DNA of 64,000 nucleotides from an uncultured Neomegalonema sp. (GTDB taxonomy: Bacteria > Pseudomonadota > Alphaproteobacteria > Rhodobacterales > Rhodobacteraceae). The DNA lies in NCBI GenBank assembly GCA_937990185.1, contig CALKBI010000055.1, positions 1 to 64,000 on the forward strand. The letters are read 5' to 3'. The translations under genes were made by a program, and so were the position numbers. Below are positions 39,210 to 45,838 of this stretch, in pieces. Below the pieces are notes generated by a model. The model was not told the DNA's origin. It did not search any database and saw only the letters and a program-made list of their open reading frames with translations. Numbering within the stretch: the first letter of the stretch is position 1; every line of letters starts with the position of its first letter.

Positions 39210-39341
39210 ATGGGACCGTCCACAACACGTACACTCGCATTCGTTGCCCTCAGCTTGTTATTGCTGACATCATCCTGTGCGACTTTGTTCTCGACATCAT
39301 CATACGCTGATGACTCGGAAAGTATTGTTTTTAATGAGTAA
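39210..39341 (+). CDS. Small putative lipoprotein at head of the XpaC-TelA cluster
   Basis: The track ORF starts at 39129, but ATG 39210 has GGGAG just upstream and gives 43 residues (MGPSTTRTLAFVALSLLLLT). A hydrophobic core is followed by LLLTSSCATLF, a slightly unusual lipobox with the cysteine at residue 23. The mature peptide would be only about 20 residues and acidic (DDSESIVFNE). Its last codons overlap the start of the XpaC-like gene by 8 bases, so the two are translationally coupled. Tiny lipoproteins of this sort are easily missed. Function unknown. Confidence 0.6.
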   Translation: MGPSTTRTLAFVALSLLLLTSSCATLFSTSSYADDSESIVFNE

Positions 39342-40284
39342 TGACGATTTTCAACCGCGCTCCGGCGTGAAATTCGGCGGCGCTTACAGCCCCGGAAATA
39401 CTGACACCGCAATGCGCGAGAACCCTGTTGCGCGGCTGCAATCAGCAAAAGTGTTTGATAAATCCGCCCGCCGTACAAATGCGGGGAAAACGCGGGCATG
39501 GTTGATTGTTTTACTGACGTTACCGCTTGTTTTTTCAGCGATAATCGAGATGCTGGATGGTAATGCTTTTGCGGCGATGCGGAACATTGGCCTGTTCGCT
39601 CTCTTTTGCTTCGCCGCCAATACCATCAAATCCGGGATTGAAGCCGCCAGCGAATATGAAGCGAGAGAATTCGCGTCCGCCCCTAAATTTCCAAGGAAAA
39701 TCATAGGCTCAGCGCTGCTCGGAGTTGGCTTACTGCTGACCTGCTGGACGGGTTGGGGCATCGGGCTGTTTCAATCACTCGGATTTGGCATCATGGGAGC
39801 CGCCGCGTCATTCTTTGCATTCGGCGCAGATCCTATGAAGGAAAAGGGCTACACCACCTCCACTGGGATAACGCCGCAGATGGTGATTGATGCCGTTTCT
39901 GAGGCAGAAGAAAAAATCGAGGGAATCGAACAAGCTGGGGCACAATTGAAAGACCGCCCCTTGCGTGATCGCGTCAACCGGGTAACGAAACGCGCTCGCG
40001 ATATTCTAGCGCGAATTGAGCAAGACCCTTCTGATCTTCGCCGGTCGAAAAAGTTTCTTGTCGTCTATTTAGACGGTGCATTAGAGGCAACGCAGAAATA
40101 TGCGAGAACTCAGAATGACTTAGGCGGCGAAAAAGACGTCTATATTAAGTTTCGTTCCCTACTTGACGATATGGAGCGAGAGTTCGACCATCAGCATGAA
40201 AAGCTGCTATCAAATGACCGAATAGATTTAGACGTGGAAATTGACGTATTGGCGGACCGGCTCAAATCAGCAAGCCGTTTGTAA
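39334..40284 (+). CDS. xpaC: XpaC-like membrane protein (5-bromo-4-chloroindolyl phosphate hydrolysis family)
   Basis: Start set at ATG 39334 (MSNDDFQPRSGVKFGG), overlapping the small lipoprotein; 316 residues. Four hydrophobic segments lie between about 54 and 170 (WLIVLLTLPLVFSAIIEML, IGLFALFCFAANTI, GSALLGVGLLLTCWTGWGIG, IMGAAASFFAFG). A C-terminal helical cytoplasmic part follows (VIDAVSEAEEKIEGIEQAGA, LPLRDRVNRV-type segment). XpaC proteins are routinely paired with TelA, as in Bacillus, and as here. The family's phosphatase-related name comes from a phenotype, not from a known active site. Confidence 0.8.
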   Translation: MSNDDFQPRSGVKFGGAYSPGNTDTAMRENPVARLQSAKVFDKSARRTNAGKTRAWLIVLLTLPLVFSAIIEMLDGNAFAAMRNIGLFALFCFAANTIKSGIEAASEYEAREFASAPKFPRKIIGSALLGVGLLLTCWTGWGIGLFQSLGFGIMGAAASFFAFGADPMKEKGYTTSTGITPQMVIDAVSEAEEKIEGIEQAGAQLKDRPLRDRVNRVTKRARDILARIEQDPSDLRRSKKFLVVYLDGALEATQKYARTQNDLGGEKDVYIKFRSLLDDMEREFDHQHEKLLSNDRIDLDVEIDVLADRLKSASRL

Positions 40285-40373: not shown

Positions 40374-41585
40374 ATGAGCACTCAAACAATTGATTCATTG
40401 CAAGAGAAAACAGCTATTGCTTTGCGTGAAGCCGAAGAAGTCAGCAACATCGTTTTGGCCCAACCGAAACAAGAGCTGATTACAATCGAAATGGCTGATC
40501 CCGCGACCGAGGCTGAAATTCGTCGCCGTATGAACGAAGTCGATATCAGCAATACGCAATCGATCATCAAATTTGGCTCGCAAGCACAGGAAAACCTGAC
40601 CGCGATTTCTGACGAAATGCTGGATGGAGTGCGCAACAAGGATGTTGGGCCAGCCGGTGACTCGCTGAGATCCATGGTCAATACCATTCGCGGGTTTGAT
40701 GCGAGTGAGCTTGCCCCCGGCGCTAAGCAGGGGTTTTTAGCGCGTATCTGGGGCTGGATCACCGGACGCTCATCAAAGGTCGCTGATTTCGTCACCCAAT
40801 ACGAAGAAGTGCGCGGCCAGATTGATAAGGTTCAGGACGAGCTGCTTGGTCATGAAACCAAACTGCTGAAAGACATCAAATTTCTCGATAAACTTTATGA
40901 CTCATCTCTCGGGTTCTACGATGAGCTTGCGCTGTATATTGCTGCTGGTGAAGAGAAGCTGAAAGAGCTGGACAGCACGGTTATTCCTGCAAAAGTGACT
41001 GAAGTGGAAAACGCGCCAGAGGGTGCGGGCGTCATGGTTGCGCAGGAGCTTCGTGATTTGCGGGCAGCACGCGATGATCTGGAACGCCGCGTTCACGATC
41101 TGAAACTCACCCGCCAAGTGACCATGCAGTCGCTGCCATCCATCCGGCTCGTCCAAGAAAACGACAAAAGCCTTGTCAATAAAATCAACTCCACATTGGT
41201 CAACACTGTACCGCTTTGGCAGACTCAGCTTGCGCAGGCCGTGACTATTCAACGGTCGCGGGATGCAGCGGGCGCCGTTAAAGGTGCAACCGATCTAACC
41301 AACGAGTTGCTTACCAAAAATGCTGACAACCTTCAGATGGCAAACCGCGAAGTGCGCGAGCAGATGGAGCGTGGTGTCTTTGACATCGAAGCGGTGAAAA
41401 CTGCAAACGCTCGCCTGATCCAGACGATTGAGGAAAGCCTTGCGATTGCTGATGAAGGCAAGAAGAACCGTGCTGATGCCGAGGCTGAACTCATCAAGAT
41501 GGAGTCTGAGCTAAAGGCAACACTCGCATCTGCCAGAGCGCGCGGCGATGGCACGGGAGATAATGTGGGGACGGCAGCAAACTAA
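40374..41585 (+). CDS. telA: TelA-family toxic anion resistance protein
   Basis: A 403-residue, largely alpha-helical cytoplasmic protein. Family marks are IIKFGSQAQENLTAISDEML, FLARIWGWITGRSSKVADFV, LLGHETKLLKDIKFLDKLYD, VTMQSLPSIRLVQENDKSLV and TVPLWQTQLAQAVTIQRS. TelA was named from tellurite resistance plasmids. Chromosomal homologues occur with XpaC, Ter proteins and SPFH proteins and are linked to membrane or envelope stress. A purine-rich AAAGGGACGACA precedes the ATG. It starts 89 bases after XpaC and is followed by the DUF2927 pair after 11 bases. Confidence 0.92.
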   Translation: MSTQTIDSLQEKTAIALREAEEVSNIVLAQPKQELITIEMADPATEAEIRRRMNEVDISNTQSIIKFGSQAQENLTAISDEMLDGVRNKDVGPAGDSLRSMVNTIRGFDASELAPGAKQGFLARIWGWITGRSSKVADFVTQYEEVRGQIDKVQDELLGHETKLLKDIKFLDKLYDSSLGFYDELALYIAAGEEKLKELDSTVIPAKVTEVENAPEGAGVMVAQELRDLRAARDDLERRVHDLKLTRQVTMQSLPSIRLVQENDKSLVNKINSTLVNTVPLWQTQLAQAVTIQRSRDAAGAVKGATDLTNELLTKNADNLQMANREVREQMERGVFDIEAVKTANARLIQTIEESLAIADEGKKNRADAEAELIKMESELKATLASARARGDGTGDNVGTAAN

Positions 41586-41596
41586 GGAGGACTTCT

Positions 41597-42550
41597 ATGC
41601 CCCGGCTTCGGTCGTTTGAAATTTGCTGTATCGCGTTGACCGGTCTGATCGGTTGCGCGCCGAGTTTGCCCGAGACACCGAAAGAAGTGACTTGGGAAAG
41701 CCCGTTGCCACCCGCATTTGATACAACACCTGCCGCAAATTCAACGACTCCTGCAAAGGGCAAAAAGGAAGCAACTGCACGATCTGTGCAGCAACCAACT
41801 CCAACACCACGAGCATCAACTTTTGCCAATGCAGCTCAATTGAATGAACCATTTTATTCAAATGAGCAGCTACATCAAAACTTTCTGTCCATCGCAATGC
41901 GGGCAGAGGCAGCAGATGATGTCGATTCCTCCGGCAACATAGCTGTCGCTAAATGGTTGACACCTTTGCGGTATCACCTTGAAGGAGCGACACCAGAAGA
42001 TGCTAAGCGTGTAGCAGGCCTTGTTAGACGTGTTCGCGAACTTACAGGAATTGACATTGAGCCGTCTTTTGCCCGCGCACCGAATGTCAGACTTAGCTTT
42101 GTTCCTTTTCGGACCCGTAACAATGCGGTTTACCGACTGGCCAGCGAAGGCGATTTAGGGCCTGCGGTTGGGAACATGGTTGCCCGTTGGCGGGATACGG
42201 AACGCGAGAAATGCCTTGGCTTAATTTCAGTTGATCCGGGCAGCGGTGCGATCACCAAAGCAGACATCTTGATCAAAGACGAGTTGCCGGCAATTATTCG
42301 CGACGCTTGTATTGTTGAAGAGCTGGTTCAAAGCCTTGGTCTCATGAACGACGATCCCCGCGCAAGGCCGTCAATCTTCAATGACAGTCAGGAATACCTC
42401 GATTTGACCAGCCATGACGAATTCTTACTGCGCATACTCTACGATCCGCGCGTAAGGCCCGGCATGACGGTGCGCCAGATGAATCCTCTGGTGCAGCAGA
42501 TTATCCGTGAAGTGCGCCCTCTTCCTGCACAGGTACAGAGACGCGCGTGA
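41597..42550 (+). CDS. DUF2927-family lipoprotein, paralogue 1
   Basis: A 317-residue lipoprotein: hydrophobic start with lipobox LIGC at residues 17-20, then a Pro/Thr-rich linker (about 35-75). The DUF2927 domain runs from about 85 to 310. Marks are VAKWLTPLRYHLEG, VRRVRELTGIDIEPS, ADILIKDELPAIIRDACIVE and RPSIFNDSQEYLDLTSHDEF. The segment EELVQSLGLMND at 241-252 falls where a zinc protease would have HExxHxxGxxH, with Glu, Gln and Asn in place of the histidines. Two cysteines, 206 and 238, are shared with paralogue 2 and may be bonded. It begins 11 bases after telA. Confidence 0.85.
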   Translation: MPRLRSFEICCIALTGLIGCAPSLPETPKEVTWESPLPPAFDTTPAANSTTPAKGKKEATARSVQQPTPTPRASTFANAAQLNEPFYSNEQLHQNFLSIAMRAEAADDVDSSGNIAVAKWLTPLRYHLEGATPEDAKRVAGLVRRVRELTGIDIEPSFARAPNVRLSFVPFRTRNNAVYRLASEGDLGPAVGNMVARWRDTEREKCLGLISVDPGSGAITKADILIKDELPAIIRDACIVEELVQSLGLMNDDPRARPSIFNDSQEYLDLTSHDEFLLRILYDPRVRPGMTVRQMNPLVQQIIREVRPLPAQVQRRA

Positions 42551-43419
42551 GGATACTCGTATCCTTTGCAATGCTTTTGTTTCTTGCGCCTTTAAGCATT
42601 TCATTCGCTTTAGACGAACAATCTTCACTGAGCGGACCACAGCTAGAAAAACTCTATGCTTCGATAGAGCAGACTTACCGCAATCAAGGCAAATTCAGGG
42701 AAGACTTCGATCCTGTTGACGCGCCATTTGACGCTGATATTTTATCCAAAAATTTCGCGTATGTTGCCCTTCGCAGTGAAGGACATCAGATCGATGACGA
42801 TACACTGATTGAAGAGAAATCTGCGCCAATAGTCCGATGGGAAACACCCATTCACTTATGGACCTTTGGGACGACTGATGACGATCACAAGCATCTCGAC
42901 ACTCTTTCAAAACGGATTTCAGCTTTAACGGGACTTTCCATCGCCCGTACCCGAGATGTTCAACTCGCCAATGTCTATATTTTGGTTGCCGATCAAGATG
43001 AACGGCGGGATATGGATGGGTTGATTGCAACTCTAGGGCACAACCATGGTGGCCCCTTAGGTAATGCCTGGCCAGAAAAGGCAAAATATCCCTGCATAGC
43101 GAGGGTTGCGATTGATCCGGTCTCGTTGACTCTGAAATGGGCAATTATTCTTATAAAAGACGAATTAAATGGGGCCTTTAGACGGTCTTGCCTCACAGAA
43201 GAGCTGGTTCAATCGCTCGGATTATTCAATGATGGTGCAGAAATTCGCCCTTCAATCTTCAATGATAACGCTGAGTTCATTGAACTGACACGACATGATG
43301 AATACCTATTAAAAATATTGTATGATCGACGCCTACGACCTGGAATGTTCCAGAAAGACGTTGAACCGATTGTGCGGGAAATTGCGACGAAGTTATTGGC
43401 TAACACCAAAACTTACTGA
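42547..43419 (+). CDS. DUF2927-family secreted protein, paralogue 2
   Basis: A 290-residue exported protein with GTG start overlapping the stop of paralogue 1 (GTGA). The signal peptide is MRILVSFAMLLFLAPLSISFA; there is no lipobox, so it is likely soluble in the periplasm while its partner is membrane-anchored. The domain aligns throughout with paralogue 1: ALTGLSIARTRDVQLANVYI, then CLTEELVQSLGLFND at 215-229 and RPSIFNDNAEFIELTRHDEY. The same ligand-less metzincin-like line-up is present. The cysteines at 183 and 215 match those of the partner. The tandem order suggests a local duplication. Confidence 0.85.
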   Translation: MRILVSFAMLLFLAPLSISFALDEQSSLSGPQLEKLYASIEQTYRNQGKFREDFDPVDAPFDADILSKNFAYVALRSEGHQIDDDTLIEEKSAPIVRWETPIHLWTFGTTDDDHKHLDTLSKRISALTGLSIARTRDVQLANVYILVADQDERRDMDGLIATLGHNHGGPLGNAWPEKAKYPCIARVAIDPVSLTLKWAIILIKDELNGAFRRSCLTEELVQSLGLFNDGAEIRPSIFNDNAEFIELTRHDEYLLKILYDRRLRPGMFQKDVEPIVREIATKLLANTKTY

Positions 43420-43434: not shown

Positions 43435-44544
43435 ATGAGCCTTTGGGACCGGTTAACCGGAGAATTTATCGATGTTATCGAGTGGACAACCGATGACCCA
43501 GACACGATGGTCTATCGCTTTGAGCGGCATGGCAACGAGATCAAATACGGTGCGAAACTGACAGTGCGAGAAGGACAAGCTGCAGTCTTCATCAATGAAG
43601 GCCAGCTCGCCGACGTCTTCCCTCCGGGCATGTATATGCTCGAAACCAACAACATGCCGATGATGACAACGCTGAATAGTTGGAGCCATGGTTTCAACAG
43701 CCCGTTCAAGGCTGAAGTCTATTTCGTATCGATGAAGCGATTTGTTGACATGAAATGGGGAACCAAAAATCCCGTCATGATCCGTGATCCTGAATTTGGC
43801 CCAACACGCCTGCGCGCGTTTGGTACTTATGGTATTCGCGTAGCCGATCCCGCGACGTTCATGCGCGAGATTGTAGGCACAGACGGACATTTCGATACCG
43901 ATGAGATCGAAGGTCAACTTCGTAATATCATCGTATCGCGGTTTTCAACTGCTGCTGCCGGTTCGGGAATTCCTGTGCTTGATCTTGCGGCAAACTACGA
44001 TCAACTGGGCGAGTTTGTCGGCACGAAGATTGCGCCGGAAATGGCTGAATACGGGTTGGAACTTTCGAAGCTGTTGGTCGAGAATGTCTCGCTACCGCCG
44101 GAAGTCGAGAAAGCAATGGACAAACGCACCGAGATGGGTGTGCTGGGTGATCTGAACAAATACACCCAATTCCAAGCAGCCGAGTCCATGCGTGCTGCTG
44201 CTGAAAACGGTGGTGACGGCGGAGGATTGGCTGGCGCAGGGATGGGCGCTGGCATCGGCATGGCACTCGGCAATGCCATGGGCAACGCAATGGGCGGTGT
44301 TGGCGTCGGGCAAGCATCGGCTGCAGTTCCCCCACCTCTGCCAACAGCGAAATGGCATGTTGGGATTAACGGCCAAACGAGTGGACCTCACGATACCTCT
44401 GCACTTGGTGGCATGGTCAGCAATGGACAGATGAACCGTGATACACTTGTATGGTGTGACGGAATGAGTGGGTGGACTAAGGCCGGAGATGTCGGTGATC
44501 TTCGCAGCTTGTTTCCGGCAACACCGCCACCGTTGCCAACCTAA
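43435..44544 (+). CDS. SPFH-domain protein with C-terminal GYF-like domain (YdjI type)
   Basis: A 369-residue protein. The SPFH/virion-core-like domain (about 1-245) starts SLWDRLTGEFIDVIEWTTDD and includes REGQAAVFINEGQLADVFPPG and AFGTYGIRVADPATFMREIV. Next is a glycine/alanine/methionine-rich linker (about 265-300; GAGMGAGIGMALGNAMGNAM), then a GYF_2-type domain (WHVGINGQTSGPHDTSALGG ... LVWCDGMSGWTKA). SPFH proteins form membrane rafts or scaffolds. Bacillus YdjI, its relative, works with PspA in envelope stress. No PspA gene is nearby. It follows the DUF2927 pair by 15 bases. Confidence 0.9.
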   Translation: MSLWDRLTGEFIDVIEWTTDDPDTMVYRFERHGNEIKYGAKLTVREGQAAVFINEGQLADVFPPGMYMLETNNMPMMTTLNSWSHGFNSPFKAEVYFVSMKRFVDMKWGTKNPVMIRDPEFGPTRLRAFGTYGIRVADPATFMREIVGTDGHFDTDEIEGQLRNIIVSRFSTAAAGSGIPVLDLAANYDQLGEFVGTKIAPEMAEYGLELSKLLVENVSLPPEVEKAMDKRTEMGVLGDLNKYTQFQAAESMRAAAENGGDGGGLAGAGMGAGIGMALGNAMGNAMGGVGVGQASAAVPPPLPTAKWHVGINGQTSGPHDTSALGGMVSNGQMNRDTLVWCDGMSGWTKAGDVGDLRSLFPATPPPLPT

Positions 44545-44647: not shown

Positions 44648-45838
44648 ATGACCTCCGAGCCAATAAGCAGCGATCACTTTCCTTGTGCCCAATGTGGCGC
44701 AGACTTACGGTTCGAACCGGGGAAAGAAGTTCTTGTCTGCGAATATTGCAACCATGAAAATCACATCGACATCGATGGTGAGCCGATTCAGGAATTGGAC
44801 TTTCGCAAAGCAATTGCAAATCAGCTTAGTGACGTTCAAACGGAAACAACCACCGTCGCAAAATGTTCGTCTTGCGGAGCGACAGTAGAGTTCGATCCTA
44901 ATCTTCACGCGGATGAGTGCCCGTTTTGCGCTGGCCCGTTGATTACCGATGTCGCTCAACACAGGCACTTAAAGCCAAAAGGCGTTTTACCCTTTGCTAT
45001 TGCAGAGAGCGAAGCCAAAGACTTTCTAAAAGAATGGCTCGGCAGTCGATGGTTCGCTCCAAGCGCGCTGAAGAAATATGCGCGGGCTGATCATAAGATG
45101 AATGGGCTTTACACGCCTTATTGGACTTTCGACGCCGATACGCAAAGCACCTATCAGGGACAGCGCGGCGACGTTTATTATATCGAACGCATGGTCACTG
45201 TGATGACCGATAAAGGACCGCGCAAACAGCGTCAGCGTATTCCGCAAATCCGTTGGACCCGAGTATCCGGGCGTGTGCGCCGTTGGTTTGATGACGTTCT
45301 GGTTCTCGGCTCCAAAGCATTACCGAAACAATTTGCCGATGAGTTAGCGCCTTGGGATCTTCATGCAATCTTGCCCTATCAATCCGAATATCTCGCCGGA
45401 TTTCGTGCGGAAGCCTATACAATCGATTTGCGCGAAGGGTTTTCTGAAGCACGCGCCAATATGGATTTAACAATCCGACGCGATGTCCGATTTGACATTG
45501 GCGGCGATCAACAGCGTGTTGACAGACTCGATACAGAGTTCGGCGGTGTCACGTTCAAACATGTCCTCTTGCCAATCTGGATTGCAGCCTATCGCTATCG
45601 CGGAAAGTCCTATCGTTTTGTAGTGAACGGACGGACCGGTAAGATCAGAGGCGCAAGACCATATTCGGCGTGGAAAATTCTTGCCGCCGTTTTGCTCGGC
45701 GCTTTGGTTATGACGATATTTTTCTCCGTGCTCTATGGGTCCGGCACGCTGGATCAAATGATGTATGACGGCGGATTCATTCCACAAAATTTACCGCGCG
45801 GTGCGCCGCCAGTCTTTTTCCCTGACGGGCTTCGATAA
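44648..45838 (+). CDS. Zinc-ribbon membrane protein (YdjG/TFIIB-ribbon type)
   Basis: A 396-residue protein. Two zinc ribbons lie at the N-terminus: CAQCGADLRF...CEYCNHEN and CSSCGATVEF...CPFCAGPL. A beta-rich middle domain follows (YARADHKMNGLYTPYWTFDA, VLLPIWIAAYRYRGKSYRFV). One transmembrane helix is near the C-terminus (ILAAVLLGALVMTIFFSVLY), leaving a short tail. Databases often mislabel such proteins as primosomal N' helicase. The Bacillus homologue is encoded beside PspA and YdjI. Here it closes the cluster after the SPFH gene, and a hairpin follows. Confidence 0.88.
   Translation: MTSEPISSDHFPCAQCGADLRFEPGKEVLVCEYCNHENHIDIDGEPIQELDFRKAIANQLSDVQTETTTVAKCSSCGATVEFDPNLHADECPFCAGPLITDVAQHRHLKPKGVLPFAIAESEAKDFLKEWLGSRWFAPSALKKYARADHKMNGLYTPYWTFDADTQSTYQGQRGDVYYIERMVTVMTDKGPRKQRQRIPQIRWTRVSGRVRRWFDDVLVLGSKALPKQFADELAPWDLHAILPYQSEYLAGFRAEAYTIDLREGFSEARANMDLTIRRDVRFDIGGDQQRVDRLDTEFGGVTFKHVLLPIWIAAYRYRGKSYRFVVNGRTGKIRGARPYSAWKILAAVLLGALVMTIFFSVLYGSGTLDQMMYDGGFIPQNLPRGAPPVFFPDGLR

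Follow-up and report, generated by a model that had tools for sequence, protein, structure and literature searches.

Metzincins, above all the matrixins (Peptidase_M10, clan MA; e.g., MMP-1, MMP-13 and karilysin), have the same fold as that predicted for the DUF2927 (PF11150) proteins. The elements of DUF2927 follow a matrixin-like order: a helix, strands, a beta-hairpin, the active-site helix with its Glu, a Gly turn, S-x-M/F and a C-terminal D..LY (D..LLxxLYD) helix. The zinc motif HExxHxxGxx(x)H is kept both in matrixins and in a minority of DUF2927 relatives (the H-form, or H/H/H), in the latter mostly with an extra residue before the third His. By contrast, the two DUF2927 proteins of the locus described here, W1 and W2, are without the three zinc His and without the Met of the Met-turn, and matrixins and DUF2927 do not match in sequence above the Pfam cut-offs. 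The non-catalytic domain of GH20 hexosaminidases is zincin-like (SCOP d.92.2) and has no metal site; however, it is a glycosidase accessory domain in which, unlike in DUF2927, no conserved polar set has taken the place of the ligands. Zinc-site residues are also replaced, partly by Gln or acidic residues, in the metzincin domains of the inactive ADAM11, ADAM22 and ADAM23, for which a function in binding is assumed (PMC11266112). ADAM pseudo-peptidases mostly lose the catalytic Glu (PMC11266112), and the inactive ADAMs are eukaryotic, whereas DUF2927 is a very large bacterial family with an invariant Glu and one uniform Glu/Gln/Asp (E/Q/D) set. Neither DUF2927 nor PF11150 was named in any of the papers searched, and no earlier statement of a metzincin reading of the family was found in them; this search covered papers rather than the clan tables of Pfam or automated fold assignments.

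For the gene neighborhood, the nearest described system is pspA-ydjGHI of Bacillus subtilis, an envelope-stress operon with the SPFH protein YdjI and the zinc-ribbon membrane protein YdjG (PMC8581546, PMC9239133). An SPFH protein and a zinc-ribbon protein are common to that operon and to the one in the window, by which we mean the whole 64,000-nucleotide stretch of DNA analyzed. However, the window operon has XpaC and TelA at its head and exported DUF2927 proteins inside, and the Pfam scan of its genes showed no PspA. The features of the locus were as follows.

39319..40284, + strand: XpaC / Halogen_Hydrol-type membrane protein at the operon head (PF10112, E 1.1e-32; the listed ORF runs from 39277)
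40374..41585, + strand: TelA-family protein directly upstream of W1 in the same operon (PF05816, E 3.5e-106)
41597..42550, + strand: W1, DUF2927 protein of 317 aa (ORF and PF11150 match)
42212..42310, + strand: hairpin of W1 from Cys206 to Cys238 (family-wide Cys pair; strands in the domain model)
42317..42352, + strand: W1 motif EELVQSLGLMND, residues 241-252 (column alignment with 17-18 H-form relatives and profile-profile alignment)
42371..42385, + strand: W1 SIFND, residues 259-263, at the metzincin Met-turn (S-x-M), with Phe261 for Met
42547..43419, + strand: W2, second DUF2927 protein, 290 aa (ORF and PF11150 match)
43198..43233, + strand: W2 motif EELVQSLGLFND, residues 218-229
43435..44544, + strand: SPFH/Band-7 protein with a C-terminal GYF_2 domain, downstream of W2 (PF13421, E 4e-101; PF14237, E 1e-17)
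44648..45838, + strand: zinc-ribbon protein with a C-terminal hydrophobic segment, last of the conserved set (weak zinc-ribbon matches; conserved order)

The reading frames of W1 and W2 shared four bases (GTGA), and both products were DUF2927 proteins, as had been claimed from the sequence; in the Pfam scan the PF11150 E-values were 2e-41 and 3e-38, with scores of 142.8 and 132.4 bits for W1 and W2, respectively, above the curated cut-off of 26.2 bits. W1 began with a lipoprotein signal read from the sequence (lipobox LIGC, Cys20), followed by a Pro/Ala/Thr-rich linker and a metzincin-like domain from about residue 85, and W2 carried an ordinary cleavable-type signal peptide. Export signals, usually of the lipoprotein type, were found almost everywhere among DUF2927 members, in agreement with the prediction that the family is exported.

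The motifs lay exactly where the original prediction had placed them, and neither EELVQSLGLMND nor EELVQSLGLFND is an HExxHxxGxxH/D zinc motif. Column alignment with the H-form confirmed that all three zinc His are replaced, by Glu, Gln and Asp: in W1, E241, Q245 and D252 occupy the three His positions of HExxHxxGxxxH and E242 is the catalytic Glu, and in W2 the general-base Glu is E219 and the third-His position is D229. The Asn proposed as the third-His equivalent (W1 N251, W2 N228) was ruled out, as the His of the relatives aligned one residue later, in the column of Asp252 and Asp229. In Rhodobacteraceae-type members (C-x-HEELAQ) a His immediately precedes the motif; a reading of it as a shifted HE motif was also rejected, since its register is off by one residue and W1 and W2 have Val or Thr at this position. 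The two Cys were indeed common to both proteins (C206/C238 in W1, C183/C215 in W2), but they do not flank the motif as had been suggested: the pair brackets the preceding beta-hairpin (strands 122-128 and 135-143 in domain-model numbering), with C238 preceding E241 by three residues. The pair was conserved in 74/75 sequences of the E/Q/D form and 17/17 of the H-form (thinned set, below) and is probably a disulfide.

PF11150 was present in 143/150 genomes sampled from the bacterial family of the window, in 40/289 from its class and in 62/399 from its phylum. The pattern E-E-x-x-Q..G was found in 96 of the 123 aligned sequences, with a 97th deviating at the first position only, and H-E-x-x-H..G plus the third His in 18; a few members had scrambled motifs (SQLSR, AQTSR, WGVAS, SMIAG, RNLLY) and had also lost the Glu. 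Forms with intact and with replaced ligands, W1 and W2 among the latter, belong to the same Pfam family, and both sometimes occur within one genome. Most H-form members had HExxHxxGxxxH, with one residue more than the textbook form, whereas one relative (L034) had the textbook HExxHxxGxxH itself (HELAHGFGFAH). After thinning at 70% identity, 75 E/Q/D, 17 H/H/H and 7 other sequences were retained. Among the 92 divergent sequences of the first two classes the switch was all-or-none, with one exception at each of two positions, and the columns conserved in the H-form yet different in the E/Q/D form were exactly 241, 245 and 252, the zinc-ligand positions. The Met-turn column held Phe in 70/75 sequences of the E/Q/D form, and Met or Leu in 5/17 each of the H-form.

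Free variation at the motif positions, which would have spoken against the original prediction, was not seen in this alignment. In the E/Q/D form, E241 was conserved in 74/75 sequences, E242, Q245 and G248 in 75/75 each and D252 in 74/75; among 233 columns these ranked 6, 1, 2, 3 and 7, respectively. Decay of a protease, in which the positions would drift once constraint is relaxed and no more than a structural relic or simple scaffold would remain, has taken place in some members, as the scrambled motifs show. For the main branch, however, the replaced positions are within its seven most conserved domain columns, and this conservation holds across Alphaproteobacteria and other Pseudomonadota; decay is largely refuted here and is a very improbable account of W1 and W2. 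Few residues of the family are conserved as strictly as the E/Q/D set and the catalytic Glu, indicating that the site is re-specialized rather than decaying. The term pseudo-protease used in the original prediction is therefore apt only for the absent zinc triad.

A free tree of DUF2927 needed four switches between His and Glu, but a single H-form clade was not rejected (p-AU 0.73), so that one joint switch from H/H/H to E/Q/D is possible. The H/H/H state is probably ancestral because it is identical with the metzincin motif.

The likeness of W1 and W2 to metzincins in Glu and Gly alone proved to be at chance level, and therefore the question had to rest on relatives and structure; the metzincin idea itself was supported by the relatives, the profiles and the fold. 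When an H-form profile was compared with all PDB sequences, 58 matches were obtained at E<=10, of which 56 were metzincins (leishmanolysin, the best at 0.0028, MMPs, astacins, archaemetzincin, snapalysin and meprin), and no other HExxH clan was among the 58, the individual E-values being weak. The W-clade profile aligned with the H-form profile motif over motif (prob 99.6, E 3e-24). All 13 H-form members scanned were PF11150 proteins with sub-threshold matrixin and astacin matches in Pfam, and the metalloprotease matches in NCBIfam were likewise all sub-threshold. No metzincins were found by PDB sequence search with W1 alone or with the W1/W2-clade (E/Q/D) profile, showing that sequence alone does not reveal the fold.

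Structure prediction followed by a fold search, the check set beforehand, gave metzincin-like models for both proteins. With an input alignment of seven sequences (the window proteins and those of loci L001-L003), the AlphaFold2 model of the W1 domain had a pLDDT of 79.2 and a pTM of 0.79, and that of W2 a pLDDT of 73.4 and a pTM of 0.76. The best 50 Foldseek matches of W1 in the PDB were all metzincins (MMP-1/-13/-10/-12, karilysin and myroilysin), the top one with E 2.9e-4 and a probability of 1.00, and TM scores reached 0.63 by target length; by query length, model TM was about 0.4-0.46, and the models were weak around the Met-turn. W2 matched best to MMP-13 (5uwl; E 4.4e-4, prob 1.00), with the GH20 hexosaminidase Bt4394 as a lower match. 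Hairpin, active-site helix, Gly turn, S-x-F/M turn and C-terminal helix followed in matrixin order, in line with the zincin-type order of elements that had been proposed. These models, both of which resemble the catalytic domain of matrix metalloproteases, support a metzincin fold for W1 and W2. An accidental or convergent likeness, with DUF2927 unrelated to metzincins and its HExxH members coincidental, would fit the lack of metzincin similarity in W-clade sequences taken alone and the sub-threshold Pfam matches of the H-form. Against it, independent lines agree (Foldseek with both W1 and W2, and the H-form profile against the PDB), the Met-turn Ser and the C-terminal helix come in the expected order, and L034 carries the textbook motif, so that we regard such a coincidence as extremely improbable.

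Our preferred explanation, which we hold to be quite likely, is that DUF2927 is an exported family of metzincin fold in which the majority has exchanged the three zinc His jointly, leaving what is likely a binding cleft in an envelope-stress operon. DUF2927 would thus be matrix-metalloprotease-like, with a minority branch in which the zinc site HExxHxxGxx(x)H is still complete and which probably consists of active envelope metalloproteases. The majority branch, to which W1 and W2 belong, has exchanged the three zinc His together for Glu, Gln and Asp; the general-base Glu, the Gly of the turn and the probable disulfide are retained, and further conserved polar residues have been added (in W1, E104, N251, N262 and D263). 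As the zinc His are exchanged, W1, a predicted lipoprotein, and W2, predicted to be soluble in the periplasm, should not be classical zinc proteases. Their old catalytic cleft would most likely serve as a putative site for a ligand, peptide or partner, and proteolysis would have been lost.

A re-specialized cleft is the best reading of the E/Q/D form, and binding of a peptide or partner, of a harder metal or of a substrate would each be compatible with the sequence. An invariant general-base Glu (75/75) would be unusual in a protein that serves purely as a binding scaffold and counts against the preferred explanation. Together with the conserved E/Q/D set and the class-specific acids and amides, the retained Glu242 could equally be part of some other active site or of a new metal site with oxygen ligands. 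In the most explicit form of this alternative, the site is re-metallated: E241, Q245 and D252, with N251, N262, D263 and perhaps E104, would provide oxygen ligands for Ca, Mg, Mn or another metal and E242 would still act, which implies a metal sensor or a new kind of hydrolase on a metzincin frame. Glu, Gln and Asp are all possible metal ligands, E242 is invariant, the E/Q/D residues are conserved as strictly as the His of the H-form, and 7 of the 9 conserved columns specific to the E/Q/D form (E104, E241, Q245, N251, D252, F261, N262, D263 and L270) are Glu, Gln, Asp or Asn. However, Gln coordinates metals poorly, E104 is not part of the active-site helix, and conserved carboxylates serve hydrogen bonding or substrate binding too; we consider re-metallation unlikely. 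A broader proposal, that a large bacterial family converted the metzincin His/His/His jointly to Glu/Gln/Asp with the catalytic Glu kept and so gained a different polar active or metal site as the periplasmic part of a TelA-SPFH envelope-stress system, appears somewhat doubtful.

The gene order XpaC-like, TelA, DUF2927, SPFH/GYF and zinc-ribbon was conserved in the bacterial family of the window and in Neomegalonema, and was found at loci L001-L003, L139, L142 and L144. TelA adjoined DUF2927 at 49 loci of the same family or Neomegalonema, and TelA and SPFH were both present at 47; outside that family the neighbors of DUF2927 differed. A conserved operon with an SPFH and a zinc-ribbon protein is what a Psp/Ydj-type module contains, and TelA has been linked to tolerance of nisin and cell-wall antibiotics in Listeria in work cited in PMC12791056. 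Since DUF2927 is exported, we infer that W1 and W2 would supply the periplasmic part of a module that otherwise resides in the cytoplasm and inner membrane, the XpaC-TelA-(DUF2927)-SPFH/GYF-zinc-ribbon operon, with a putative role in envelope stress. At L003 (6844-7018) the second DUF2927 gene (42547-43419 in the window) was absent and the W1 copy was followed directly by the SPFH gene, showing that the module does not require W2. As a general account of W1 and W2, control of an active cousin encoded by the same genome was rejected; a genome search found no H-form DUF2927 copy in the genome of the window, so the two proteins do not regulate such a cousin there.

Other arrangements were seen elsewhere in the family. 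Rhodobacteraceae-type loci L089, L090, L091, L140 and L143 had a second, longer DUF2927 paralogue of about 450-510 aa (HEELAQALGPLND), outside the TelA operon and with an unassigned C-terminal extension. In one genome (L097/L098, contig 1 of G160, about 44-70 kb) seven DUF2927 genes were arrayed within about 21 kb: some encoded intact HExxH forms joined to membrane regions of several helices, others E/Q/D forms, and one the scrambled WGVAS form. An H-form protein (HEIMHSLGVRGH) encoded at L166:5239-6459 (- strand) was fused to a C-terminal Peptidase_M23, a hint that the zinc form may act in peptidoglycan or envelope processes, and another (HEILHGFGLMNH, L169:5448-6968) had a C-terminal Sel1 repeat region. 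In three genomes, H-form genes adjoined genes for lipoproteins of about 320 aa (L164:3949-4938, L167:4538-5506 and L171:4346-5281; ..ESPLVF..) that look like one family and had no Pfam match; these are a possible partner or substrate of the H-form.

With this reading, a Pfam family of uncharacterized function would gain a fold and an ancestry, together with an active-site region that can be tested, and the poorly understood TelA/XpaC/SPFH operon a conserved exported component. The H/H/H and E/Q/D relatives form a natural pair for asking what a metzincin does after the loss of its zinc.
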